Origin: a virus
IMG/VR virus record: IMGVR_UViG_3300044729_002364
Coordinates: 1 to 28,078 of that record
Length of the DNA stretch: 28,078 nucleotides
Reading direction: 5' to 3' (one strand)
The notes beneath the pieces were generated by a model. That model was not told where the DNA came from. It made no database searches and was given only the letters and a program-made list of their open reading frames with translations. Made by a program: the position numbers and the translations under genes. Shown in pieces: positions 10,705 through 25,297 of the stretch (position 1 is its first letter; the number at the start of each line of letters is the position of its first letter).

Positions 10705-12078
10705 ATGGCGACAGCTACTGCCCCCACGGGACTTCGCCCAAGTGGCGACATTGTAGTAGGCAAAAACCGGCTTTCTCTGCGGCCAATGCAGGGGATGATT
10801 TTTAATGATCGACGCCGTTTTCGTGTTGTCTTAGCTGGCCGGCGTGGTGGAAAGACGGTGCTAGGGGCAATCGAAATGCTGCGCGGCGCTAGTGAGCGCA
10901 AGGGCAATTACTATTATGTTGCGCCAACGTATCGGATGGCAAAAGAGATCGCTTGGGATACTTACAAGAGTATTATTCCAGAACGCTGGATAAGAAAGAA
11001 AAACGAATCAAACCTTAGAATAGACTTGATTAACGGATCTTGCATCTACCTTAAGGGTTCTGAAGATCCAGACGCTTTGCGCGGTCCTGCACTAAGCGGA
11101 GTAAATTTAGACGAATGCGCTTTTCAGACGGAATATACATGGAGATCAGTTGTCCGTCCTGCACTTTCTGACCGCAACGGCTGGGCGCTCTTTACTACCA
11201 CTCCCTCGCCTGAGGGCACCGCAGGTTGGTTCTACGAAACAATCTTGCTTTTGAAAAATGCTGATATGGCCGATCCTGGCCTAGAAAGGCTTGACCCTAA
11301 GCAATGGTCATTATATGAGTACACATCCTTGCAAGGCGGCAACATTCCAGCAGCCGAAATTGCGGAAGCCAGAAAAACGCTAGCGCCTGAAGTGTTCGAG
11401 CGCGAGTACGAAGCAAGGATACTATCAAATACGGGTCTTGTGGTGTCGTGTTTTTCGATGGATAATATCGACTCAACGATTGAGGACGATCCAAGGTTGC
11501 CGCTATATGTTGGAATGGACTTTAACAACGATCCGCTTACTGCTATTTGCGCAAACATTATTAAGGTAAACGGCAGAGCTGTAGAATTGCGAATTTTTAA
11601 TGAACTGAACCTAAAGGGCGCCAATACATGGGACATGGCAGACGTGCTAATTGATCTATATGGTGGCGAATGCTGGGCAAGCGAAGACGCGGATACTCGC
11701 CGCCGCATTATTGCTTGTCCTGATCCAACCGGCAAAAGAAAGCAAACGTCTGGCGTTGGCGTTAGCGATCACCAGATTCTTAGGAAGGCCGGAATTACCG
11801 TTTTTGCCCCTGAAGCGCCCTATAACACCGCTGACAAGATTCGATCTGTGAACGCAGCATTGCGTACCGCAGACGGGGAAGTGCATACCAAGATCCATCC
11901 ACGTTGCCGGGAGCTGACAAAGTCATTCCGCACACTTGGTTACGCCGAAGGCACAAGAATGCCAAACAAGAAACTTGGCGTCGATCATGCTTTCGACGCC
12001 TTCGGCTATTTATGTCTGGGCAAATTTAACCTTGCAAAAGGCGAATCGGGTACTGTTACTACCCACAGAGTCTACTAA
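10705..12078 (+). CDS. terL: Terminase large subunit
   Basis: 457 residues. N-terminal packaging ATPase: Walker A AGRRGGKT (about residues 44-51), adenine-side segment YYYVAPTYRMAKEIAW, Walker B-like LSGVNLDECAF with catalytic Glu, and motif III FTTTPSPEGTAGWFYE. C-terminal RNase H-like nuclease: first Asp in LYVGMDFNNDP, later ACPDPTGKRKQTS and the final Asp in GVDHAFDAFGYL. It translocates DNA into the procapsid and cuts genome ends. Unlike most phages, terL is not in line with portal but divergent from it, and no small subunit lies directly upstream; a candidate is encoded at 17749-18324. Start ATG is in CTCCATGGCG context without Shine-Dalgarno. Confidence 0.95.
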   Translation: MATATAPTGLRPSGDIVVGKNRLSLRPMQGMIFNDRRRFRVVLAGRRGGKTVLGAIEMLRGASERKGNYYYVAPTYRMAKEIAWDTYKSIIPERWIRKKNESNLRIDLINGSCIYLKGSEDPDALRGPALSGVNLDECAFQTEYTWRSVVRPALSDRNGWALFTTTPSPEGTAGWFYETILLLKNADMADPGLERLDPKQWSLYEYTSLQGGNIPAAEIAEARKTLAPEVFEREYEARILSNTGLVVSCFSMDNIDSTIEDDPRLPLYVGMDFNNDPLTAICANIIKVNGRAVELRIFNELNLKGANTWDMADVLIDLYGGECWASEDADTRRRIIACPDPTGKRKQTSGVGVSDHQILRKAGITVFAPEAPYNTADKIRSVNAALRTADGEVHTKIHPRCRELTKSFRTLGYAEGTRMPNKKLGVDHAFDAFGYLCLGKFNLAKGESGTVTTHRVY

Positions 12079-12129
12079 TTCTCTATATTTTGCCTTTTTC
12101 TGGCGATTCTGGCGGTGGTAGTCGAGCAA

Positions 12130-12149
12130 TTGGCCCCCGCCTCGGCCAA
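12130..12149. terminator. Stem-loop between convergent terL and dNMP kinase genes
   Basis: Inverted repeat TTGGCC/GGCCAA with an 8 nt GC-rich loop in the 79 bp between the two convergent stop codons. There is no proper T-tract on either strand, so it is a weak or factor-assisted terminator at best. Confidence 0.3.
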
Positions 12150-12157
12150 GAAAACCG

Positions 12158-12691
12158 CTAGCCAGCGTAGTAGCCTTTGGAGGAAAAAAGATTTTGAAGT
12201 TTGCCTACAAACGAGTCCAAGTTTTTTTCAGGTCCATGGTTATCGCAATAAAGTTCAGCGTCGTAGATGGTCAGCTCCATCGAATCCTCGCTTTCCAGGG
12301 GCTTGCGCTGCCGTGCGTCAACCCAAATAACGCAATCAAATAATCTAGCTTTGCGGCAAGCGTTAAATTCGTCTCGCCTTCGCATCCCAACGTACATATC
12401 GTAACCACGCTCAAGCATGGTTCGAGCCGTTCGTGTTTTGTCAGGGGTATTGTAAGCGGAGATTAAATCTGCCCATGTTTTTCGATGATTAACTCTATCC
12501 GCAAACATTTCCTCAAAAGTGTGGTAGCGGTCACGGCCCCACGTTGGCCAAATACATTCTTGCCCGACAAAAACTGAAGAAGAGGTAAACGCCAGGTCCA
12601 TTCTGTCGCGGATTTTTTCAGCAAGGGTATCCTTGCCGTGACGCGCATGGCCGATAATAAGCAATTTAGGCTTGCGGCGTGAAGGATTCAT
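12158..12691 (-). CDS. Deoxynucleoside monophosphate kinase-like P-loop protein
   Basis: 177 residues from ATG 12691 (MNPSRRKPKLLIIGHARHGK); a longer in-frame form would overlap the upstream gene and is not preferred. P-loop IIGHARHGKDTLA matches the GxxxxGKD Walker A of T4 gp1-like/adenylate-kinase-like phage kinases, which phosphorylate dNMPs to feed replication. Later MYVGMRRRDEFNACRKARLF and DCVIWVDARQRKPLES give the LID-like Arg cluster and a strand ending in VDA. It lies 4 nt after dCTP deaminase, so the two form a nucleotide metabolism pair. Substrate range cannot be read from sequence; a DNA-modification precursor role is also possible. Confidence 0.7.
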   Translation of the reverse strand: MNPSRRKPKLLIIGHARHGKDTLAEKIRDRMDLAFTSSSVFVGQECIWPTWGRDRYHTFEEMFADRVNHRKTWADLISAYNTPDKTRTARTMLERGYDMYVGMRRRDEFNACRKARLFDCVIWVDARQRKPLESEDSMELTIYDAELYCDNHGPEKNLDSFVGKLQNLFSSKGYYAG

Positions 12692-12695
12692 AACT

Positions 12696-13211
12696 TTAAC
12701 CCTTTGATGGGGTAACGATTGCATTGTTATTGTACCTGCCGGTGACGGCGTAAGAGAGCCTAGGTTCGGAATCCATCGTAGAAAACTTCATCTGCCCGAT
12801 TTTGAGCCCTGGATAAATGCCTATCGGCCAAAGCTGGCGAACGTTTAGAAGCTCAAGCGTTAAGCGCGAGCCGTGCCAGCCGGGATCGCAAAAACCAGCC
12901 ATCAAATGCTGTAATCCACTTCTGGCGCGAGAGGATTTAAGGATAAATTGGCCTTCTAAGTCGTTGGGAATGTTGAAGATTGGGTCAGTTTCAACCAGGA
13001 AGAACTGTCCTGGCACTATGAGATAAGGATTTTCTTCTGTGTATTTAGCGATTGAAACTAGCACCATTTCTGGGCTTTCTGCTGATTCGATCATAATGTT
13101 GCTGCCCAAGCGCAAGTCAAGCGATGCCGGGTTGACCAGCGCAGGATCATACGGAGTGACCATGCCAGCCATGCAGCGTTTGTGGATCTGCCAGTCAACA
13201 AGAGTGCCCAT
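12696..13211 (-). CDS. dcd: dCTP deaminase / dUTPase-family protein
   Basis: 171 residues. Family signatures in order: SLDLRLG near residue 30, LKSSRARSGLQHLMAGFCDP about residues 91-110 (equivalent of the GKSSLARLGL...DPG motif with catalytic Ser/Arg), and WHGSRLTLELLN containing the catalytic Glu. dCTP deaminase converts dCTP to dUTP, feeding dTTP synthesis; bifunctional members also hydrolyse dUTP. MPGLKIGQ-like segment (YPGLKIGQMKFSTMDSEP) matches the conserved C-terminal strand. First gene of a two-gene unit with the dNMP kinase; promoter TAGAAT at 13235-13240. Which of mono- or bifunctional type it is cannot be told by eye. Confidence 0.85.
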   Translation of the reverse strand: MGTLVDWQIHKRCMAGMVTPYDPALVNPASLDLRLGSNIMIESAESPEMVLVSIAKYTEENPYLIVPGQFFLVETDPIFNIPNDLEGQFILKSSRARSGLQHLMAGFCDPGWHGSRLTLELLNVRQLWPIGIYPGLKIGQMKFSTMDSEPRLSYAVTGRYNNNAIVTPSKG

Positions 13212-13234
13212 GGTGCGTTGATTGTTGCAGTGTC

Positions 13235-13274
13235 ATTCTATCACGTTGCTTGCCGGCAAGGGATGAGCTATGAT
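13235..13274. promoter_or_regulatory. Symmetric divergent promoters around a 12 bp palindrome
   Basis: Minus-strand -10 TAGAAT (13235-13240) serves dcd; plus-strand -10 TATGAT (13269-13274) serves the 13281 gene. Between them lies the perfect palindrome CTTGCCGGCAAG (13249-13260), whose centre is exactly 14.5 bp from the near edge of each -10. It would cover the -35 region of both promoters and looks like a shared operator. Confidence 0.5.
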
Positions 13275-13280
13275 TGAGCC

Positions 13281-13448
13281 ATGGAACGCCCCCGCGAGTT
13301 CACGATGGTCCGGCACAACGGCGAGATTGGCTGGAAACTGCCATATTCCTACAAACTGTTACCATCTTCTGCAACGGCTGGCGTTGTTGTCGTGGACCCC
13401 AAGGGGATTACGCGACTTGTTGCTCGCAAAACGCTGACGCTGCGATGA
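13281..13448 (+). CDS. Small protein of unknown function, probably leaderless mRNA
   Basis: 55 residues, beginning MERPREFTMVRHNGEIGWKL and ending VVVVDPKGITRLVARKTLTL plus R. No family recognised; the pattern of short strands with VVVVD suggests a small beta protein. ATG at 13281 lies 6 nt after a good -10 (TATGAT 13269-13274), so transcription should begin at or within a base or two of the A of the ATG, giving a leaderless message. The next gene begins 15 nt downstream and has its own -10. Too short for ordinary length cut-offs, but promoter placement and start context CCATGG support it. Confidence 0.55.
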   Translation: MERPREFTMVRHNGEIGWKLPYSYKLLPSSATAGVVVVDPKGITRLVARKTLTLR

Positions 13449-13451
13449 TTG

Positions 13452-13460
13452 TGCTATGAT
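13452..13460 (+). promoter_or_regulatory. Extended -10 at the start of the 13463 gene
   Basis: TGCTATGAT immediately followed by TG and ATG (13463). A transcript from this box would start just at or inside the start codon region, so it may give a leaderless message or feed the downstream peptidase gene. Confidence 0.4.
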
Positions 13461-13462
13461 TG

Positions 13463-13756
13463 ATGGGTAATCAGCAGGAAACGACCTTGGAACTCACGCC
13501 AGATGCAGTGCGCGCTTTTAATGAGATAATAAAGGCGCTGCACAGCTTTGCGCAAAACCCTGACATAAACTGTCGAAAGCCTTCAGTTGATCTTGAACCT
13601 CGGCGCGAAGTTGATAGGCTGCGCACTGCTGACATTCTTCAGGCAATGACCATGCGCAATGCTACTGATCAAGCTATTCCCGAAGAGTGGATGGACGAAT
13701 TAGACGATCTTGTTTGGCGTGAGCGTGATAGACTGGCCGCTGACGCTGGAAGCTGA
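13463..13756 (+). CDS. Small acidic helical protein, unknown
   Basis: 97 residues from ATG 13463 (a TTG three bases upstream is in frame). Content is charged and helical: LTPDAVRAFNEIIKALHSFA, then DLEPRREVDRLRTADILQAM and PEEWMDELDDLVWRERDRLA. No family recognised. It ends 2 nt before the C39-like peptidase gene (TGACCATG), so the two are co-translated and may act together, for instance as an accessory or lysis-timing protein, which is only a guess from position. Confidence 0.65.
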   Translation: MGNQQETTLELTPDAVRAFNEIIKALHSFAQNPDINCRKPSVDLEPRREVDRLRTADILQAMTMRNATDQAIPEEWMDELDDLVWRERDRLAADAGS

Positions 13757-13758
13757 CC

Positions 13759-14298
13759 ATGACCGCAACTTCGCCCAGGTTCCCCAATCCTCTTGATGTC
13801 AAGTGGCAGTCTCAAAACGATAACGCCAGTGGCCGTGGCTACCGGGAGTGCTTCAGCTCTAGCTGCGCCATGCTGGCCATGTTTCATGGCAAGATTGCCA
13901 ACGACGACGCCTACAACCGGATTCGTCGGCAATTTGGTGACACAACGGACGTAACGGCACAGCTCAGGGCATTGCAGTCACTAGGTTTACGCCCTTATTT
14001 TACGAAAAATGGCAAGCTGGCAGACATTGAAGCCGAGATTGACGCCGGCAATCCAGCCGCTGTGGCATGGCTGCACGAAGGGCCAGTGTCGGCTCCGATT
14101 GGTGGTGGTCACTGGTCGGTAATTGTGGGTTACACAGCCACCCACTGGATTCACAATGATCCGAACGGTGAAGCGCTGTTAGTCAGTGGTGGTTACACAG
14201 GTAATCGAAACGGATACAGGCTTGCGTACAGCCGGAAAAACTGGAATCCTCGGTGGCAGGAAGGCGGGGAAGCCTGGATGCTTACTTGTAAGCCTTGA
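13759..14298 (+). CDS. C39-like cysteine peptidase, candidate endolysin
   Basis: 179 residues. N-terminal QSQNDNASGRGYRECFSSSC contains the probable catalytic Cys in the 'CFSSSCAMLAMF' helix; GGGHWSVIVGYT carries the His and HNDPNGEALL the Asp/Asn, the Cys-His-Asp order of papain-like C39-type peptidases. C-terminus YSRKNWNPRWQEGGEAWML is a conserved tail in the phage versions I know, which are often encoded near lysis or tail genes of cyanobacterial phages. A peptidoglycan-cleaving role at lysis is the likeliest; no signal peptide, transmembrane helix or cell-wall-binding repeat is seen. Preceded by two small plus-strand genes and followed by two more. Confidence 0.7.
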   Translation: MTATSPRFPNPLDVKWQSQNDNASGRGYRECFSSSCAMLAMFHGKIANDDAYNRIRRQFGDTTDVTAQLRALQSLGLRPYFTKNGKLADIEAEIDAGNPAAVAWLHEGPVSAPIGGGHWSVIVGYTATHWIHNDPNGEALLVSGGYTGNRNGYRLAYSRKNWNPRWQEGGEAWMLTCKP

Positions 14299-14304
14299 TT
14301 TATG

Positions 14305-14313
14305 TGCTAGAAT
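14305..14313 (+). promoter_or_regulatory. Extended -10 promoter upstream of the 14341 gene
   Basis: TGCTAGAAT, 27 nt before the ATG at 14341. Immediately upstream, overlapping the peptidase stop, is a GCTTAC-TT-GTAAGC inverted repeat (14280-14293). No -35 is visible. Confidence 0.5.
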
Positions 14314-14340
14314 CAAACTGTCCCAACTCAACGGACCACC

Positions 14341-14655
14341 ATGGCAAAGCCTTACAGCTACAACCAAATCAACCCTGTGGCGATGTTCCGCGCCTTGGGC
14401 GACGTAGCTGAGCGTTTCCCGTGCGTCGCGTTTAACCTTCAAAGTACAACTGATTTTGATTTTCTACATTCGTTTGGTGTACCCGATCAACTGGTGAATT
14501 CTGGTATTGACTGCACCGCTACTTTCCGTTTCCTTTTGGATCAACCGGCCATGCGGTTGGCATTAGGTGCTGCCTACAAGCAACACAGCGGGAATGATGC
14601 TCCATTCCTTTCAAATCCAGAGCGTGAGGCCGTTGATTCGGGTCGCTGCCCATGA
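14341..14655 (+). CDS. Unknown protein, 104 residues
   Basis: Begins MAKPYSYNQINPVAMFRALG; the rest mixes helices (LVNSGIDCTATFRFLLDQPA, MRLALGAAYKQHS) with short loops. No family recognised, no membrane segment. Its leader CAACTCAACGGACCACCATGG is nearly repeated before the next gene (14702), suggesting a reused translation start region. Promoter at 14305-14313. It is part of the plus-strand cluster that contains the C39-like peptidase, so a role in lysis or host interaction is possible but unproven. Confidence 0.65.
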   Translation: MAKPYSYNQINPVAMFRALGDVAERFPCVAFNLQSTTDFDFLHSFGVPDQLVNSGIDCTATFRFLLDQPAMRLALGAAYKQHSGNDAPFLSNPEREAVDSGRCP

Positions 14656-14701
14656 TTGACGCCACCCGGCTTCCGATGACCACCCAACCCAACAGACCAC
14701 C

Positions 14702-14935
14702 ATGGATGAAGTTCTAACGCCAAAGCCTCAGCAGGATGTTCACCCGGACCCCGAAGAGGATCTAATGCAAAGGATTCTTGCTGAGTGCATGAAGACTGAT
14801 CTTTCTGCTGTACATGCTGCTGGTACGTGCCACGCTGTTGGCGTGCTACTTTTGGCGCAGGCTTACAATTTGACACAGAGAGAAGAAGTGCAGCCCCTGC
14901 CGCTTGGGGATGACATTGAGTTTATTGAGCCATAA
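14702..14935 (+). CDS. Unknown acidic protein, 77 residues
   Basis: MDEVLTPKPQQDVHPDPEED is acidic and Pro-rich; then a helix LMQRILAECMKTDLSAVHAA and GTCHAVGVLLLAQAYNLTQR, a moderately hydrophobic helix; the end GDDIEFIEP is acidic. No family recognised. The start has the ACCACCATGG leader shared with 14341. The gene is the last of the plus-strand unit and is followed 25 nt later by an intrinsic terminator. Confidence 0.6.
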   Translation: MDEVLTPKPQQDVHPDPEEDLMQRILAECMKTDLSAVHAAGTCHAVGVLLLAQAYNLTQREEVQPLPLGDDIEFIEP

Positions 14936-14960
14936 ACGCAACCCCTGCCCCGGTTGCATG

Positions 14961-15001
14961 TACGCCAACTTATACGCTAGCTTGTACGCTGGCGTATTTT
15001 T
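14961..15001 (+). terminator. Intrinsic terminator of the plus-strand unit
   Basis: Stem TACGCCA (14961-14967) pairs with TGGCGTA (14990-14996), followed by five T. The 22 nt loop can fold further. It ends the 13281-14935 unit. Confidence 0.7.
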
Positions 15002-15178
15002 GTATGTGGGCATATTGTTTGGGAGAATGTTGGGGCGGGATATTATATTGGGAGAATACTGGTGCGAGATGGGAGAGGTATGGGCACCCCCTCCCCGCTA
15101 CACGAAAACCGCAACCCTGCCCCCGGTAAGCATAACAAACCGGGGGAGGATTGGAGAGTGGTAGCGATAGCCAATTGC
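15002..15178. other. Convergent intergenic region with a GC-rich stem-loop
   Basis: Between the plus-strand terminator and the minus-strand gene ending at 15179 I see no convincing gene. It contains an 8 bp perfect stem CCCCCGGT/ACCGGGGG (15120-15127, 15139-15146; 11 nt loop). No T-tract follows on either strand; it may aid termination of the minus-strand unit. Confidence 0.4.
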
Positions 15179-15433
15179 TCAATATTGCGGCATGGCAAAG
15201 GTGAGGATAGCAGCGTTAGGATGCTTCCAAGTATAACCATCTAAGTAAGATTCAGTCTTAGCATTGCTACCGTTCAAGCCTGCTACCTTGCGTAGCGCGG
15301 TAATAACTTGCCTGTCTGTTAAGTTGTCGGCTAAAGTTATCTCTTCCCTGTGACACCAACAACCATTGACTGACCATCCGTTGCCATCATTGATGGCATC
15401 TGACGTTTCGACAATCCAAGTAGTTTGTGACAT
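15179..15433 (-). CDS. Unknown protein, 84 residues
   Basis: MSQTTWIVETSDAINDGNGW, with CWCHREEITLADNLTDRQVI and later a Tyr-rich segment YLDGYTWKHPNAAILTFAMP. Mixed alpha/beta, no recognised domain; the TDRQVITALRKVAGLNG part looks like an amphipathic helix. Leader contains three CCCATCAT repeats. It is the last gene of a minus-strand set of small unknown proteins (15179-16248) probably transcribed from the 16275 promoter. Confidence 0.6.
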   Translation of the reverse strand: MSQTTWIVETSDAINDGNGWSVNGCWCHREEITLADNLTDRQVITALRKVAGLNGSNAKTESYLDGYTWKHPNAAILTFAMPQY

Positions 15434-15471
15434 TGTGGTAGTAGCGATGGGATGATGGGATGATGGGATAA

Positions 15472-15720
15472 TTAACGTTTGGAGATTATACCTAAAGGGT
15501 ATATATCACGCGCCTTGTCTAATGCCTCATTGCGGCAAGATGCCCTAACATGATCAGAATGCAGCCCGTCATAATCACTGATACAATATAACCTTTCACC
15601 GGTTCCCCAGTATTCGGGATACTTACCGTAGGTGTAACCTTGTGGATTTAGCCTTACATGCTGGCAATATACCCTGCCAGTGTAGGTTTTAGCGGCTAAT
15701 CTTTCATCGTAAATTGACAT
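15472..15720 (-). CDS. Unknown protein, 82 residues
   Basis: MSIYDERLAAKTYTGRVYCQ, then HVRLNPQGYTYGKYPEYWGT and DYDGLHSDHVRASCRNEALD. Tyr-rich, two to three predicted strands and one C-terminal helix EALDKARDIYPLGI; pattern 'Y.....D.......R..nrk.Al..A' resembles small phage proteins of unknown role. Leader CCATCATTCCATCGCC resembles that of the next gene at 15433. Confidence 0.6.
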   Translation of the reverse strand: MSIYDERLAAKTYTGRVYCQHVRLNPQGYTYGKYPEYWGTGERLYCISDYDGLHSDHVRASCRNEALDKARDIYPLGIISKR

Positions 15721-15753
15721 TGCGTTAGGGCGATGGAATGATGGAAATTAAGA

Positions 15754-16248
15754 TCAATCACCATAGGCACACTCTATGGGTTGGCTACAATGATCGACGC
15801 TAACAGCGGACTCGGCTAATGGTAGAAAGTGTGATTTGTCCTCATTTTCGCAGTCACTACTGATAAAGTAACGAATTGACGTAGCTTGCCCCTTGCTATC
15901 GACAATCGCCCAAAAATGGCCAGAGGGTAAGGTCTTAAGTGAATTGTCGTTATGTATGTATTTTTCTGGCAAGTCGCACCAGTTAGCGTAGAACTTACCA
16001 TTACACCAACGACCGTGTACTTGATTCTTGGCTAGGGTAACGGTCCTAACGTGATGCCAAAGGAAGAGAACAGTCTCTTTGCGCTTATCAGCCAAGCATT
16101 GATAATTAGCGGATTCCAGGATACCTTGCCAAACGTCTTGCATCTGCTGCATAGTCTTGTAGTCGTTCTTAGCGCAGTCCCATTCATAGGTGATCCGCCA
16201 TGCTAGAGAATGCATGGCGGAGCTTTGCTTGGCAAGTGACGCGGGCAT
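15754..16248 (-). CDS. Unknown protein, 164 residues
   Basis: Start taken at ATG 16248 (MPASLAKQSSAMHSLAWRIT), because the upstream in-frame ATG at 16284 lies inside the hairpin and -10 of its own promoter. Helical first half (DYKTMQQMQDVWQGILESAN), a central VLFLWHHVRTVTLAKN, then a strand GRWCNGKFYANWCDL and a segment GHFWAIVDSKGQATSIRYFI. Six Cys and many Trp. No family recognised. First gene of a three-gene unit. Confidence 0.6.
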   Translation of the reverse strand: MPASLAKQSSAMHSLAWRITYEWDCAKNDYKTMQQMQDVWQGILESANYQCLADKRKETVLFLWHHVRTVTLAKNQVHGRWCNGKFYANWCDLPEKYIHNDNSLKTLPSGHFWAIVDSKGQATSIRYFISSDCENEDKSHFLPLAESAVSVDHCSQPIECAYGD

Positions 16249-16274
16249 GACCTTGTTTGCTTTGGTACTTGCAT

Positions 16275-16327
16275 ATCCTACCATGCCTTAGCACGGTAGG
16301 ACGGTGGACGCTTAACAGTTTGCAAGG
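16275..16327 (-). promoter_or_regulatory. Composite operator-hairpin-promoter a
   Basis: Operator-like CTTGCAAACTGTTAAGC (16310-16327), a hairpin CCTACC..TGC/GCA..GGTAGG, and a -10 candidate TAGGAT (16275-16280) in that order on the minus strand. Gap from operator to -10 is 29 nt. No T-tract follows the hairpin. Serves the gene starting at 16248. Confidence 0.5.
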
Positions 16328-16346
16328 TTGGCACGGTGGCCAGAGG

Positions 16347-16706
16347 TTAAATATAGTTTCCCTTTTCTACTATGTCACCATAGCAAGCGACAACGTAGCG
16401 CCCAGTTTCGCAGAATCGTATAATTGTAGGAATGTAAGGATCACCTACGTTCAGATAGTCAAAACCTTTGTTTTTAAAAATAGTATCATCTTTATGCGCA
16501 ACGTATTCTACGCCACAAGTCTCAGCGATTGCATCCAAAACCGTTAGTCTGATTTGAGACGTTTTTGCCGGGTGAAATAACGCAGACAAGTGTTTAGCCC
16601 CTGGATGCTGTTTTAATTCTTTTCTACTCAATTCTAGGACGCGCCTAAGGTCCTTCCCTAGGCCGGGGAAAGCAGAATTTAACGTTTTGATGCTTGGGAG
16701 GTTCAT
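16347..16706 (-). CDS. Conserved-looking phage protein of unknown function, 119 residues
   Basis: N-terminal half basic and helical (GLGKDLRRVLELSRKELKQH); C-terminal half has the pattern LDAIAETCGVEYVAHKD ... YLNVGDPYIPTIIRFCETGR YVVACYGDIVE. The 'gvEy......y.N.GD.Y..Ti......y.v...GDivE' layout recurs in short phage proteins of unknown role that I have seen in many tailed phages; I cannot name a family. The leader is a tetranucleotide-like TTCATTCATTCA stretch. Co-directional with 16737-17006, 30 nt downstream of it. Confidence 0.6.
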   Translation of the reverse strand: MNLPSIKTLNSAFPGLGKDLRRVLELSRKELKQHPGAKHLSALFHPAKTSQIRLTVLDAIAETCGVEYVAHKDDTIFKNKGFDYLNVGDPYIPTIIRFCETGRYVVACYGDIVEKGNYI

Positions 16707-16736
16707 TGTTCTAATGAATGAATGAGTGAGTGAATG

Positions 16737-17006
16737 CTAGGCAGACTGACAGAGAAAATAATAATTACTAGCATCATGGCCCCTGCCAACTATCTTGAGG
16801 TTGTTCTCGTATGGCCAGGATGCTAGTAATTTTTCGGCAGCTTTTAAGTGGTTTTCTTCATCGCTTAAGGCATTGTCAACATTAAGATAACAGCGCCAAG
16901 TTGTACCATTATCTCTCTTGTGTGTTGCCAAAACACGGGACTCCCTATTGTTGGTAGCACAACAGTATTTTGTGATAATTACTGGGCCGAGAATTAGGTC
17001 AGACAT
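16737..17006 (-). CDS. Unknown protein, 89 residues
   Basis: MSDLILGPVIITKYCCATNN, then RVLATHKRDNGTTWRCYLNV and a helical ENHLKAAEKLLASWPYENNL followed by IVGRGHDASNYYFLC. The plan (strand, strand, helix, strand) with W.....N...AA..LL suggests a small alpha/beta phage protein; no name can be given. Its start overlaps the end of the 16999 gene by 8 nt, indicating coupling. Confidence 0.6.
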   Translation of the reverse strand: MSDLILGPVIITKYCCATNNRESRVLATHKRDNGTTWRCYLNVDNALSDEENHLKAAEKLLASWPYENNLKIVGRGHDASNYYFLCQSA

Positions 17007-17331
17007 TAGCCGAACCCTCCCTAATTTGTTGGGCAGCTTCCTTTAAGATGCAAACAGCGCCGGCAAGCGTAAGAAAGTCGCCACACCTGCGCAACAGTGT
17101 ATCTGACTCCATGGGAATAGGCAATGATAGCCGATCCCAAGCGCTTAAAGGTATGTCGTTAAAGTATGGATCTTTGCTGCCTTTAATGTCGAAAGGCAGG
17201 TTTTTGAGCCTAATAAAATGGGCGGGAGTCACGAACTGAGCATAGTAGGCGCGATGAGCCGCCTGCCGCCAGGCGCGGTCTGCATGGCGAGGATCGGCCA
17301 TGTATTCAGCTCTTGAGATCAATTCGGCCAT
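16999..17331 (-). CDS. Unknown protein, 110 residues
   Basis: MAELISRAEYMADPRHADRA, a helical segment WRQAAHRAYYAQFVTPAHFI, then PLSAWDRLSLPIPMESDTLL and a C-terminal helix AGAVCILKEAAQQIREGS. The RAEYMADP..H..YYAQFV layout resembles small phage proteins with 'y....s...HR.YYaqfv' but no function is known to me. First gene of a three-gene unit read from the 17356 promoter; start in ACCATGG context, leader CGCACCGCCCCACC without Shine-Dalgarno. Confidence 0.65.
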   Translation of the reverse strand: MAELISRAEYMADPRHADRAWRQAAHRAYYAQFVTPAHFIRLKNLPFDIKGSKDPYFNDIPLSAWDRLSLPIPMESDTLLRRCGDFLTLAGAVCILKEAAQQIREGSANV

Positions 17332-17355
17332 GGTGGGGCGGTGCGTGTTTGCTTA

Positions 17356-17406
17356 ATAGTAGCATGGTTGTTAAGCGTGTGTGCTGGACGCTTAACAATT
17401 GGTAAC
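17356..17406 (-). promoter_or_regulatory. Composite operator-hairpin-promoter b
   Basis: Operator GTTACCAATTGTTAAGC (17390-17406) overlaps the stop codon of the upstream gene; -10 TACTAT with TGC before it (17356-17361); gap 28 nt. The operator half TTGTTAAGCG is repeated inverted, forming a 10 bp stem with an 11 nt loop (17368-17398). Serves the gene starting at 17331. Confidence 0.55.
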
Positions 17407-17625
17407 AGTGGCAGTATTGTCAAGGCTTAGTAATTTTTCGCTTATCTCTCCTAAGGTTCTTGCGTAGAAACAATCTTTATTGTCTCTTCTTTGCGCAAGC
17501 CATCTATACCTTGAGCCTATAGGGTTAGCTCTTTTAATAAACCATATTCCATCGTTGCCGGCTGAATACCCTATGTATTCGCCTGTCCGACAACTTATGT
17601 CAATGTTAGGAAAGGATGCGCCCAT
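17392..17625 (-). CDS. Unknown protein, 77 residues
   Basis: Start taken at ATG 17625 (MGASFPNIDISCRTGEYIGY); the in-frame ATG at 17652 lies immediately against the -10 of its own promoter. Beta-rich pattern: YSAGNDGIWFIKRA, then SRYRWLAQRRDNKDCFYART and a final helix GEISEKLLSL. No family recognised. The stop codon TAA is embedded in the operator of the next unit, which ties this gene's 3' end to downstream regulation. Confidence 0.6.
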   Translation of the reverse strand: MGASFPNIDISCRTGEYIGYSAGNDGIWFIKRANPIGSRYRWLAQRRDNKDCFYARTLGEISEKLLSLDNTATVTNC

Positions 17626-17652
17626 GAATGCCTCTTTGTGAATGGCTCCCAT

Positions 17653-17704
17653 ACGATAGCACCCTAACAGGGCCAGCGCCTATGAATGCTTAACATTTAG
17701 TTGC
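17653..17704 (-). promoter_or_regulatory. Composite operator-promoter c
   Basis: Operator-like GCAACTAAATGTTAAGC (17688-17704), -10 TATCGT preceded by TGC (17653-17658), gap 29 nt, then ATG at 17625. Between them only a small CCCT/AGGG hairpin. It lies just downstream of the candidate small terminase gene. Confidence 0.45.
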
Positions 17705-17714
17705 ATGAATGGCC

Positions 17715-17859
17715 GTCTCAGATGAGACTCATTGCGCCGCAAGGGTTCTCAACAAGTCTCAGTCTCAATCTCAACCGTCTCATCGTTGAGACTGGGCGCT
17801 GTCTCATCTGAGACCGGCTGAGACTCACCGGCAGCAATCGCAGGGGCTTCGACTGAGAC
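17715..17859. repeat. Cluster of ten GTCTCA/TGAGAC boxes
   Basis: Hexamers at 17715, 17723, 17756, 17762, 17777, 17787, 17801, 17809, 17819 and 17854, several as head-to-head pairs such as GTCTCATCTGAGAC. They cover the 3' end of the 17749-18324 gene and its downstream flank. Three more lie at 18525-18549. Chance would give roughly 14 per 28 kb on both strands, so ten in 145 bp is a strong cluster. Confidence 0.8.
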
Positions 17860-18324
17860 GGTCAACACAAGGTCCTCCTCGCTCAAGCCAGCACTCTCAC
17901 GCATCTCCCCAGCGATCTCCCCGGCACGCTCTAGCCCCTTGAGCGCTGGCCCCCAATCACGGGTCGCCAAGGCCCCCTGAATGGCCGTCTGGCGGGCTGC
18001 GGCCACCATGGCGCGGCGCAACTCTGGCGGAGCGCTCTCAGCGGCTAGCAGAGCACGCTCAGCCTTGCGCTGAATGCGAGTCAGGGTGGCGTTGGTCAGG
18101 CACGGATGCGCCTTTGCCAGCTTCCACCTAACCTGAACCGGCAACAATCCAGCGGCGTAATAACTGAATGCCTCTTGTGTTAAGGCTTCTAAATCTGGCG
18201 CTTCTTCTTTCTCGCTACTTTGGTCCCAAGATGCCTGCCAAACGTTATGGGTGCGTAGCAATCTCTCGCTGTCTGGCCGGCAGTGGATAGGAGTTGGGTT
18301 AATGCGAGAAAGCGACGAATCCAT
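17749..18324 (-). CDS. Candidate terminase small subunit / DNA-binding protein
   Basis: 191 residues. A helix-turn-helix-like segment lies at about residues 47-90 (ALTQEAFSYYAAGLLPVQVR then LAKAHPCLTNATLTRIQRKA), followed by long helices ELRRAMVAAARQTAIQGALA and DWGPALKGLERAGEIAGE, the DNA-binding plus oligomerisation plan of small terminases. The C-terminal tail is acidic and Thr/Glu-rich and is coded by the GTCTCA box cluster. Small terminases recognise the packaging site, often close to or inside their own gene. It lies far from terL and on the other strand, so a general DNA-binding role is the alternative. Promoter: TAGTAT at 18349-18354 (minus). Confidence 0.45.
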   Translation of the reverse strand: MDSSLSRINPTPIHCRPDSERLLRTHNVWQASWDQSSEKEEAPDLEALTQEAFSYYAAGLLPVQVRWKLAKAHPCLTNATLTRIQRKAERALLAAESAPPELRRAMVAAARQTAIQGALATRDWGPALKGLERAGEIAGEMRESAGLSEEDLVLTVSVEAPAIAAGESQPVSDETAPSLNDETVEIETETC

Positions 18325-18434
18325 TTTGCTCTTATTCGTGATTACAGGATACTACAGCGCGGCATAGTTTCATGCTTTTATCTTGCCGGCAGGAAGAAAA
18401 TGGTCTTATAGGCTTGACTTATGGCGGATAATCG

Positions 18435-18667
18435 CCTGCATTTTCAGTAACATGCCCAAAAGCCTGATGGGAGCTGGTAGAGATAGAGAGAATAGAAGAA
18501 AATACTTTTTTTCACTTTTTCTCTGTCTCATTGAGACTCATAGTGAGACTGTATCACCCTGATACACGTTTAGGCCACCTTTTTTATTAGGCGTTCTGTC
18601 TCCTTTTGCGTTTTTCCCACGGATCGTTGCGCCGCAAGGCTTTTGAATGTGTTACTGAAAATGCAGG
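18435..18667. repeat. Long inverted repeat
   Basis: Arm CCTGCATTTTCAGTAACA at 18435-18452 is the exact reverse complement of 18650-18667 (18 of 18). After a 4 nt unmatched spacer the match resumes for nine bases (CAAAAGCCT at 18457-18465 against 18637-18645). The arms are separated by about 170 bp that include the GTCTCA boxes. Confidence 0.85.
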
Positions 18668-18723
18668 TTTATCTCCTCGACACCTTTTTCCTTATAGATC
18701 GTTGCGCTGCAAGGCTTTTGAAT
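18622..18723. repeat. 27 bp direct repeat containing a TTGCGCCGCAA palindrome
   Basis: Copies at 18622-18648 and 18697-18723 differ at one base (TTGCGCCGCAA versus TTGCGCTGCAA) and continue with weaker similarity. A third partial copy, TTGCGCCGCAAGG, is at 17733-17745 inside the GTCTCA cluster, linking the two repeat areas. Confidence 0.85.
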
Positions 18724-18794
18724 AGATCACTACTCGATGCAGACCCCAAAAATGACCATAAGCCAGCCTGATCTGTCCAGGTTGAGAATCCAAT

Positions 18795-18822
18795 GAGAAA
18801 GCTGGGACTTGAAAGCCCCAGC
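18795..18822 (-). terminator. Terminator after the 18850 gene
   Basis: Minus-strand stem of about 9-10 bp (GCTGGGGCTT with AAGTCCCAGC, one G-T pair) followed by TTTCTC. It lies 28 nt beyond the stop of the small gene at 18850-19026. Confidence 0.55.
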
Positions 18823-18849
18823 CCCCATGATTTACCTTGCCGGTTGTGT

Positions 18850-19026
18850 TTAAGAATTAAAGTAGTCATGCTCATAGTCGCTTAATTCGTCTTCCACTTG
18901 TTCAAGAAACTCATCCATAGCTTCGGCGTCAGTTAATGGTCTTCTTCTTGGTAAGACAGCAAAAGGATTGGCGGGATTGTTGTTCCAGCGACGGTCAAAA
19001 AGGCGCTGATTAAATTTTTTAGCCAT
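18850..19026 (-). CDS. Small acidic-tailed protein, 58 residues, unknown
   Basis: Starts MAKKFNQRLFDRRWNNNPAN, basic in the first half, then PFAVLPRRRPLTDAEAMDEF and a strongly acidic end (LEQVEDELSDYEHDYFNS). No family recognised. Supported by a clean frame, a leader that is a near-identical 52 nt copy of the leader of the 19443 gene, and a terminator directly after it. The bipolar charge suggests a nucleic-acid- or protein-binding peptide, which is only a guess. Confidence 0.6.
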   Translation of the reverse strand: MAKKFNQRLFDRRWNNNPANPFAVLPRRRPLTDAEAMDEFLEQVEDELSDYEHDYFNS

Positions 19027-24329: not shown

Positions 24330-24420
24330 TGTCGGTTAAGTGTACTCTCGACAAAAACAATAACACAAGCTGACAGGCAAAGAAACCCTGTCAGGAATGC
24401 TAAGCATTCAAGAACTTCAA

Positions 24421-24424
<4 letters not shown>
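24326..24424 (-). CDS. Tiny membrane peptide, 32 residues
   Basis: MIEVLECLAFLTGFLCLSAC followed by VIVFVESTLNRQ. One hydrophobic helix (about residues 5-26) with three Cys and acidic ends. The LSAC string resembles a lipobox, but the N-terminus is acidic, unlike a lipoprotein signal. ATG overlaps the stop of the Ala-rich protein gene (ATGA) and its stop overlaps the next ATG. Its start shares the sequence TTCGCCAATCGCCCCATG with the start region at 25086. Confidence 0.45.
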
Positions 24425-25086
<662 letters not shown>

Positions 25087-25120
25087 GGGGCGATTGGCGA
25101 AGTGGTGGTTGATGTGGAAG

Positions 25121-25297
25121 TTAGTGCCAAGTGACCAGCTTGCGGACCAAGGGAATTGATCCTGCCCAGGCACCCAATACAGTCACGGGGTAGAATCCAC
25201 AACTGCCCCAGCCTTGGGCAAAGGATGATCCTGTATTGGCCCACACAAGCCTGCCGATGTAGCCACCGCTGCTTGTGATGCGGATAAAGTCGTTCAT
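25121..25297 (-). CDS. Small protein, 58 residues, unknown
   Basis: MNDFIRITSSGGYIGRLVWA, NTGSSFAQGWGSCGFYPVTV then LGAWAGSIPLVRKLVTWH. Gly/Trp-rich with beta-like first part and a weakly hydrophobic end; no family recognised. The leader CCAACCGCCCC before ATG resembles those of 25086 and 24424. It ends 34 nt before the Ala-rich protein start. Second gene of the unit started by element h. Confidence 0.5.
   Translation of the reverse strand: MNDFIRITSSGGYIGRLVWANTGSSFAQGWGSCGFYPVTVLGAWAGSIPLVRKLVTWH

Follow-up and report, generated by a model that had tools for sequence, protein, structure and literature searches.

The window analyzed here is a 28,078-base IMG/VR virus contig (IMGVR_UViG_3300044729_002364), taken at full length. 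Genes for portal, scaffold, capsid, and tail proteins occupy its minus strand, and several small genes in a row include those for a dCTP deaminase, a clamp/RusA-like protein, and a helicase. At a distance of 5.7 kb from the gene for the large terminase (TerL), and on the opposite strand, lies a gene for a candidate small terminase (TerS), which is enclosed by two groups of the hexamer GTCTCA and its complement TGAGAC (hereafter, boxes; plus and minus signs give their strand) and adjoined by several further repeats:

10705–12078, plus strand: TerL, the presumed partner of TerS; matches phrog_2 (E = 1.9e-36) and Pfam Terminase_6N
17715–17859: downstream array of 10 boxes, from exact word search and simulation, at 17715+, 17723−, 17756+, 17762+, 17777+, 17787−, 17801+, 17809−, 17819−, and 17854−
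17732–17742: TTGCGCCGCAA palindrome, just 3′ of the terS stop codon and adjoining a box pair; kept in near relatives
17749–18324, minus strand: candidate TerS, 191 amino acids, 20.7 kDa, with a predicted helix-turn-helix (HTH) domain at about residues 45–97, a hairpin at 100–145, a DLVLTVSVE segment, and an acidic disordered tail at 163–191
18435–18452, plus strand: left arm (18 bp) of an inverted repeat that is limited to close relatives
18480–18524: A/T-rich, purine/pyrimidine-skewed tract, almost invariant in near relatives
18525–18549: upstream group of three boxes (18525+, 18532−, and 18544−)
18551–18565: short palindrome GTATCACCCTGATAC that adjoins the upstream boxes; several relatives have similar ones, as judged by eye
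18622–18648: first copy of a 27-bp repeat, with the core TTGCGCCGCAA at 18627–18637
18650–18667, plus strand: right arm (18 bp) of the inverted repeat, likewise kept in close relatives only
18697–18723: second copy of the 27-bp repeat, with the core TTGCGCTGCAA at 18702–18712
13809, 16519, 16555, 19564, and 24465: single boxes outside the two groups

Homologues of the candidate TerS were recovered from 33 IMG/VR contigs, with 55 to 92% protein identity, and 8 of the longer ones served for genome-scale comparison; sequence searches found no relative of the 191-residue product in GTDB bacterial genomes or INPHARED phages. By major capsid protein, the nearest isolates are the marine virus AG-345-A17 (40%) and the cyanophage S-2L (32%), on which account a cyanobacterial host is likely for this aquatic phage group. 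A block of fast-changing accessory genes separates terL from the candidate terS (window positions 10705–18324). In one relative (G001; C1:22004–22627, L055), a second, partial TerL-like frame with 44% identity to TerL residues 21–240 lies directly beside terL.

The window holds 18 exact copies of the box. The original prediction of 13 in two stretches proved exact as a count (10 plus 3), but they are not confined to these stretches, the remaining five being the single copies listed above. Eight of the 10 downstream boxes lie within the coding end of the candidate terS and two just past its stop codon, while the upstream group precedes the start codon by about 210 bases (200 to 225); the two groups thus flank the gene about 670 bases apart, with a total spread of about 0.8 kb. 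Their density is far beyond chance: the densest 150 bases hold 10 boxes and the densest 850 bases hold 13, against maxima of 3 and 4, respectively, in 300 first-order Markov windows and a maximum of 5 per 150 bases for any hexamer in 40 simulated windows. Likewise, in a scan of all hexamers GTCTCA formed the top cluster in the window and in relatives G001, G011, and G012, and was among the top clusters in G002 and G009, where its rivals were CATTCA and alanine-repeat or CAGCAG-type repeats. The extended consensus of the box is S-H-GTCTCA. Convergent pairs have spacers of 0 to 4 bases, most commonly 2, direct pairs mostly 0 to 9, and a test for helical phasing of the boxes found none (Rayleigh P of 0.11 to 0.52). 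Such loose spacing is as expected for independently tethered HTH domains and not for a rigid dimer operator.

The other repeats of the locus fared unevenly. The 27-bp direct repeat and its partial third copy near 17733 are present as had been claimed; its two full copies are identical at 26 of 27 positions, and what recurs at all three places (17732, 18627, and 18702) is a core 11-bp near-palindrome (TTGCGCCGCAA or TTGCGCTGCAA). The TTGCGSCGCAA elements, two upstream and one just past the stop codon, are kept in near relatives, as is the A-rich tract. The 18-bp perfect inverted repeat is also there, within 31-nucleotide arms of 87% complementarity, but it failed as a conserved part of the site: most close relatives retain 15 to 18 of the 18 pairs and one (L023) retains 10, by hand count on the alignment, and no comparably long inverted repeat was found in most of the distant relatives examined. 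Being limited to close relatives and imperfect even there, it was rejected as a conserved element and is best regarded as a minor feature. The description of this stretch as the only long noncoding one of the window holds roughly for 18325–18668; an open reading frame at 18669–18875, present in the two closest genomes only, overlaps one of the repeats. A search of the locus against Rfam matched no RNA family, and a scan of it for promoters and terminators gave results at the level of chance.

The gene between the box groups probably encodes TerS, a call with strong indirect support that combines elimination, predicted architecture, and weak reciprocal homology in a sister clade. Of the genes in the stretch from 12.1 to 21.0 kb, none but this one is shared by all eight larger relatives, and the remaining genes common to all eight are structural or terL. 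An AlphaFold2 model built with 27 sequences predicts HTH helices at 45–57, 62–72, and 78–97, in a block with pLDDT values of 82 to 94, followed by hairpin helices at 100–120 and 124–145 (pLDDT of about 80) and a disordered tail at 163–191. This prediction has an HTH, a hairpin, and a tail, the plan given for small terminases in a review together with their size (PMC9611059); the candidate agrees with it in its size (class of about 15 to 21 kDa) and in its predicted N-terminal HTH. The conserved DLVLTVSVE segment further suggests a stalk, although the AlphaFold2 model has no strand there. Sequence searches of Pfam, PHROGs, and the PDB returned no match for the product, to a TerS family or otherwise. 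By structure, Foldseek placed the TerS of G20c at rank 11 with an E value of 1.0, below significance, and BFVD gave weak matches to models labeled as TerS; the VIA-align rows shown contained no TerS, and the matches there, generic helical hairpins with Z scores under 8, were set aside as uninformative. Known small terminases were also tried by profile: the G20c TerS and a terL-adjacent candidate of Vibrio phage LP.2 aligned to neither the candidate family nor the sister family described next.

The sister clade comprises phages whose TerL is about 50% identical to that of the present group. A profile of the candidate TerS family found its best matches outside the clade in a gene that lies within about 1.4 kb of terL, in 45 contigs among the matches listed (E values of 0.001 to 0.5); this sister family has at least 588 confirmed IMG/VR stretches and is unannotated. 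A comparison of the two families by hhalign is weak (P value of 8e-5, probability of 61%). In the reverse search over all open reading frames of eight genomes, the candidate terS supplied the top four matches and ranked first in four genomes, each match being weak (E values of 0.017 to 0.45), and in the joint alignment both families begin with the HTH, continue with the hairpin, and close with a hydrophobic V-E segment. The candidate does not adjoin terL in its own clade, but its weak homologue does so in the sister clade. The original prediction had reckoned with a recognized terS directly upstream of terL in a related genome as evidence against its call; the terL neighbor found in these relatives is itself a relative of the candidate, the opposite of a refutation, and the call gains support from gene conservation, domain plan, and weak reciprocal homology alike. 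No box array was found beside the putative terS of the sister phages. Of separate interest is gp36 of cyanophage S-2L (L082:24280–24657), an unannotated protein encoded just upstream of the head genes, which matches the joint TerS profile weakly (E = 0.023) and could possibly be the TerS of that phage.

Conservation of the boxes supports the claim that they are a DNA element tied to this gene. Box groups are present in nearly all of the 33 IMG/VR relatives and mostly flank the candidate terS. In close relatives (86 to 92% identity), most boxes occupy the same positions; at 55 to 70% identity, groups persist at the 3′ end of the gene and often upstream of it too, with differing positions and numbers (0 to 7 upstream and 3 to 11 downstream). 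In the lineages of G010 and G014, exact boxes are rare, and the end of the gene retains a cluster of GAGAC cores, many of them in the form CGAGAC (Poisson P of 2e-4 to 2e-3); a related pair (L038 and L036) shows TGAGAC versus CGAGAC at matching places. In the whole genomes of G001, G002, G009, and G011, 10 to 14 of 16 to 26 copies fall within 700 bases of the terS start, and elsewhere no 250-base bin exceeds 2 copies. Among ten distinct close sequences, the synonymous pair difference is 0.086 in box codons versus 0.232 in other codons (permutation P of 0.0027) and just 0.018 in the last codon block of the gene. The coding boxes are therefore under selection at the level of DNA in close relatives, as judged from this codon comparison. 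The ET, ES, and VS repeats of the protein tail correspond to in-frame GAGAC/GTCTCA boxes (GAG-AC. reads E-T), and the acidic, ET/ES-rich tail is thus partly a by-product of these boxes.

Taking these observations together, we propose, with moderate confidence, that the locus is a packaging-initiation module of a double-stranded DNA tailed phage, consisting of a displaced terS and a bipartite, P1-like hexamer-array pac site. The earlier reading had left packaging site and replication origin side by side; of the functions considered for the boxes, a pac site is the likeliest, ahead of origin or operator. We infer that the HTH domains of TerS would recognize the boxes and that the two groups, the large one over the 3′ end of the gene and the small one upstream, would together form the pac site. 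Like its counterparts in other phages, TerS is presumably a ring; it might use avidity to hold on to many weak boxes, bridge the two groups or wrap them, and pass the DNA to TerL, which would make its first cut nearby and then package the concatemer by the headful mechanism. The TTGCGSCGCAA elements and the A-rich tract could be sites for a second, accessory protein, for bending, or for the first cut. In a TerS ring with outward-facing HTH domains, binding per domain is weak (PMC4737164), and 10 plus 3 short, loosely spaced boxes would fit recognition by avidity, just as the bipartite layout would fit looping or wrapping. On the other hand, pac-type small terminases, once purified, usually bind DNA weakly and with almost no sequence preference (PMC4737164 and PMC9611059), which counts against a specific reading of the boxes. 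Provided that the gene is terS, arrays that overlap or flank it in nearly all relatives amount to a cis element in or near terS. Relatives also carry genes for a RecB-like exonuclease, an ERF-like annealing protein, and a RuvC-like resolvase (sequences read by eye), which fit the formation of concatemers and concatemeric replication. Four near-complete relatives have exact end overlaps of 39 to 127 bases, yielding circular maps that are cut at unrelated points; such assemblies are compatible with headful packaging, fitting pac and direct-repeat packaging alike.

Packaging signals in or beside terS are already established in P22, P1, and SPP1. The pac site of P1 consists of seven TGATCA/G hexamers with Dam sites, in two groups within 161 bases inside pacA, with an IHF site between them (PMC10028697). 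The present locus resembles it in having hexamers in two groups that overlap the small-terminase gene and lie within coding sequence, and may work in a similar way; it is, however, distinct from the P1 type proper, as its 13 boxes are GTCTCA without GATC, its groups lie about 670 bases apart on either side of the gene, and both phage and protein are unrelated. The pac site of SPP1/SF6 with its protein G1P offers another parallel, with repeats beside terS, a bipartite site, and an HTH small terminase (PMC4737164); it differs in that the SPP1 repeats span promoters and the start of terS and that the TerS domain of SF6 showed little preference for the repeats, and no sequence similarity was found. 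P22/Sf6-type phages also carry the packaging signal inside terS (PMC8022706 and PMC9611059), but the pac site of P22 is one asymmetric 22-bp sequence and not an array of short boxes.

The boxes might alternatively be the iterons of a replication origin, in which case the HTH protein would be not TerS but an initiator or an origin-binding factor, a reading that we consider unlikely. Dense, short inverted and direct boxes beside an A/T-rich tract do look iteron-like, and such an origin has a conceivable model in the sister clade. Three freshwater sister phages (L148:2550–2740, L153:2580–2770, and L161:670–845) carry a comparable array, with about eight inverted hexamers inside the 3′ end of their PrimPol-helicase gene, about 7.4 kb from terL, with the words TGTCCA/TGGACA or GTTGTCCCACTG/CAGTGGGACA (GTCCCA type). 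This is a natural place for an origin, and these arrays are probably candidate origins; an origin is therefore thinkable at the GTCTCA locus too. In both kinds of array, short inverted hexamers occupy the 3′ part of a coding sequence; the two differ in the box (TGTCCA or GTTGTCCCACTG) and in the sister array being in a replication gene. The GTCTCA boxes are, by contrast, 30 to 37 kb from the replication genes in complete genomes (gene assignments by eye), and the turning points of the cumulative GC skew are found at terL and close to the replication genes rather than at the boxes. The protein, moreover, shows the plan of a TerS, and the homologue in the sister clade lies near terL rather than beside replication genes. 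Packaging is favored over replication because the array lies in a nonreplication gene, far from replication genes, and off the skew turn; an origin remote from these landmarks, or an element that is shared or has moved, would still be compatible with the data.

Less likely again is a transcription regulator of the phage as the gene product, with the boxes as its operators, the upstream group at its own promoter and the 3′ group controlling the downstream operon. The upstream boxes precede the start codon by 200 to 225 bases, and the 3′ group is followed directly by a conserved TTAAG...TATTGT leader of the next gene (by eye); autoregulation would, for that matter, also be possible for a TerS. 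Ten variably spaced boxes, mostly inside coding sequence, would nevertheless be unusual operators, relatives keep the array but have a different gene following it, and the promoter scan gave only chance-level results. A regulator would also leave the hairpin and tail plan and the terL-adjacent sister homologue without explanation.

It is improbable that the locus is instead a cos-type site with fixed cohesive ends, the boxes serving as TerS anchors in the manner of lambda cosB. In lambda, the R sites of cosB, bound by gpNu1, are multiple TerS sites beside the small-terminase gene of a phage with fixed cohesive ends, and repeated TerS sites beside terS would thus fit cos phages as well. The TerL sequence cannot separate pac from cos, as its identity to phages of known packaging type is 38% or less. 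Several contigs of relatives, about 20 in all, end within about 1 kb upstream of the candidate terS, and these ends were considered as a physical terminus; the idea was dropped, since near-complete circular contigs end elsewhere, and such ends are largely forced on short contigs that must hold both the query gene and the terL hallmark. Fixed ends would favor breaks at one place, but the four near-complete relatives circularize at unrelated places, none of the four ending at the locus, which thus differs from lambda in showing no sign of a fixed end.

That the boxes are restriction/modification sites or a functionless repeat expansion is hardly credible: GTCTC is the recognition word of BsmAI, and in near genomes GTCTCA is somewhat scarcer outside the cluster than expected (in G001, 4 copies versus 12.4 expected; rank 111 of 2,080 hexamers), as under restriction avoidance, a real but modest depletion that was given no weight, but avoidance predicts fewer copies and not a conserved cluster, and the persistence of clusters while positions turn over in distant lineages, together with the synonymous constraint on the boxes, fits neither version.

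For the protein family, the box word, the gene-enclosing layout, and a terS located on the strand opposite to terL and 5.7 kb away from it, no description was found in the open-access literature. It is conceivable, if rather doubtful, that the locus represents a new type of packaging signal, in which a hexamer array in two groups over about 0.8 kb encloses terS, is read by avidity by the TerS ring, has written the C-terminal tail of the protein through selection, and possibly serves as an origin too. In the last case, origin and pac would be combined in one element, and replication and packaging would share their start. The field still lacks an answer to how small terminases of the pac type locate their site; the candidate site offers about 4 to 14 copies of the word in natural variants, with TGAGAC shifting toward CGAGAC in some lineages, so that the roles of avidity, box number, and box identity can be tested directly. 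The proposal would further assign a first function to a protein family that has no annotation, and to the large sister family, and would annotate a packaging signal in a group of aquatic phages without a close isolate.

Several other sequence features of these phages merit mention. Gene starts carry many repeats of CATTCA(T), such as AAGAGGCATTCATG, as in the start region at 17392–17652 of the window, and forms clusters 1.2 to 1.8 kb downstream of terS in L036, L043, and G002; these repeats are probably a stereotyped ribosome-binding or start context. In the region 24397–25173, the minus-strand gene at 24421–25173 encodes a long alanine-rich repeat tail, also found in G002 and partly in G004, and on the opposite strand an open frame reads as a glycine/valine repeat. 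Finally, many palindromes of 6 bases are strongly avoided in the whole genomes of G001, G002, G009, and G011, with no AGATCT where about 90 are expected (both strands counted) and zero counts for ACGCGT, ATTAAT, GAGCTC, TCCGGA, and CCCGGG as well, which suggests hosts with many restriction systems.
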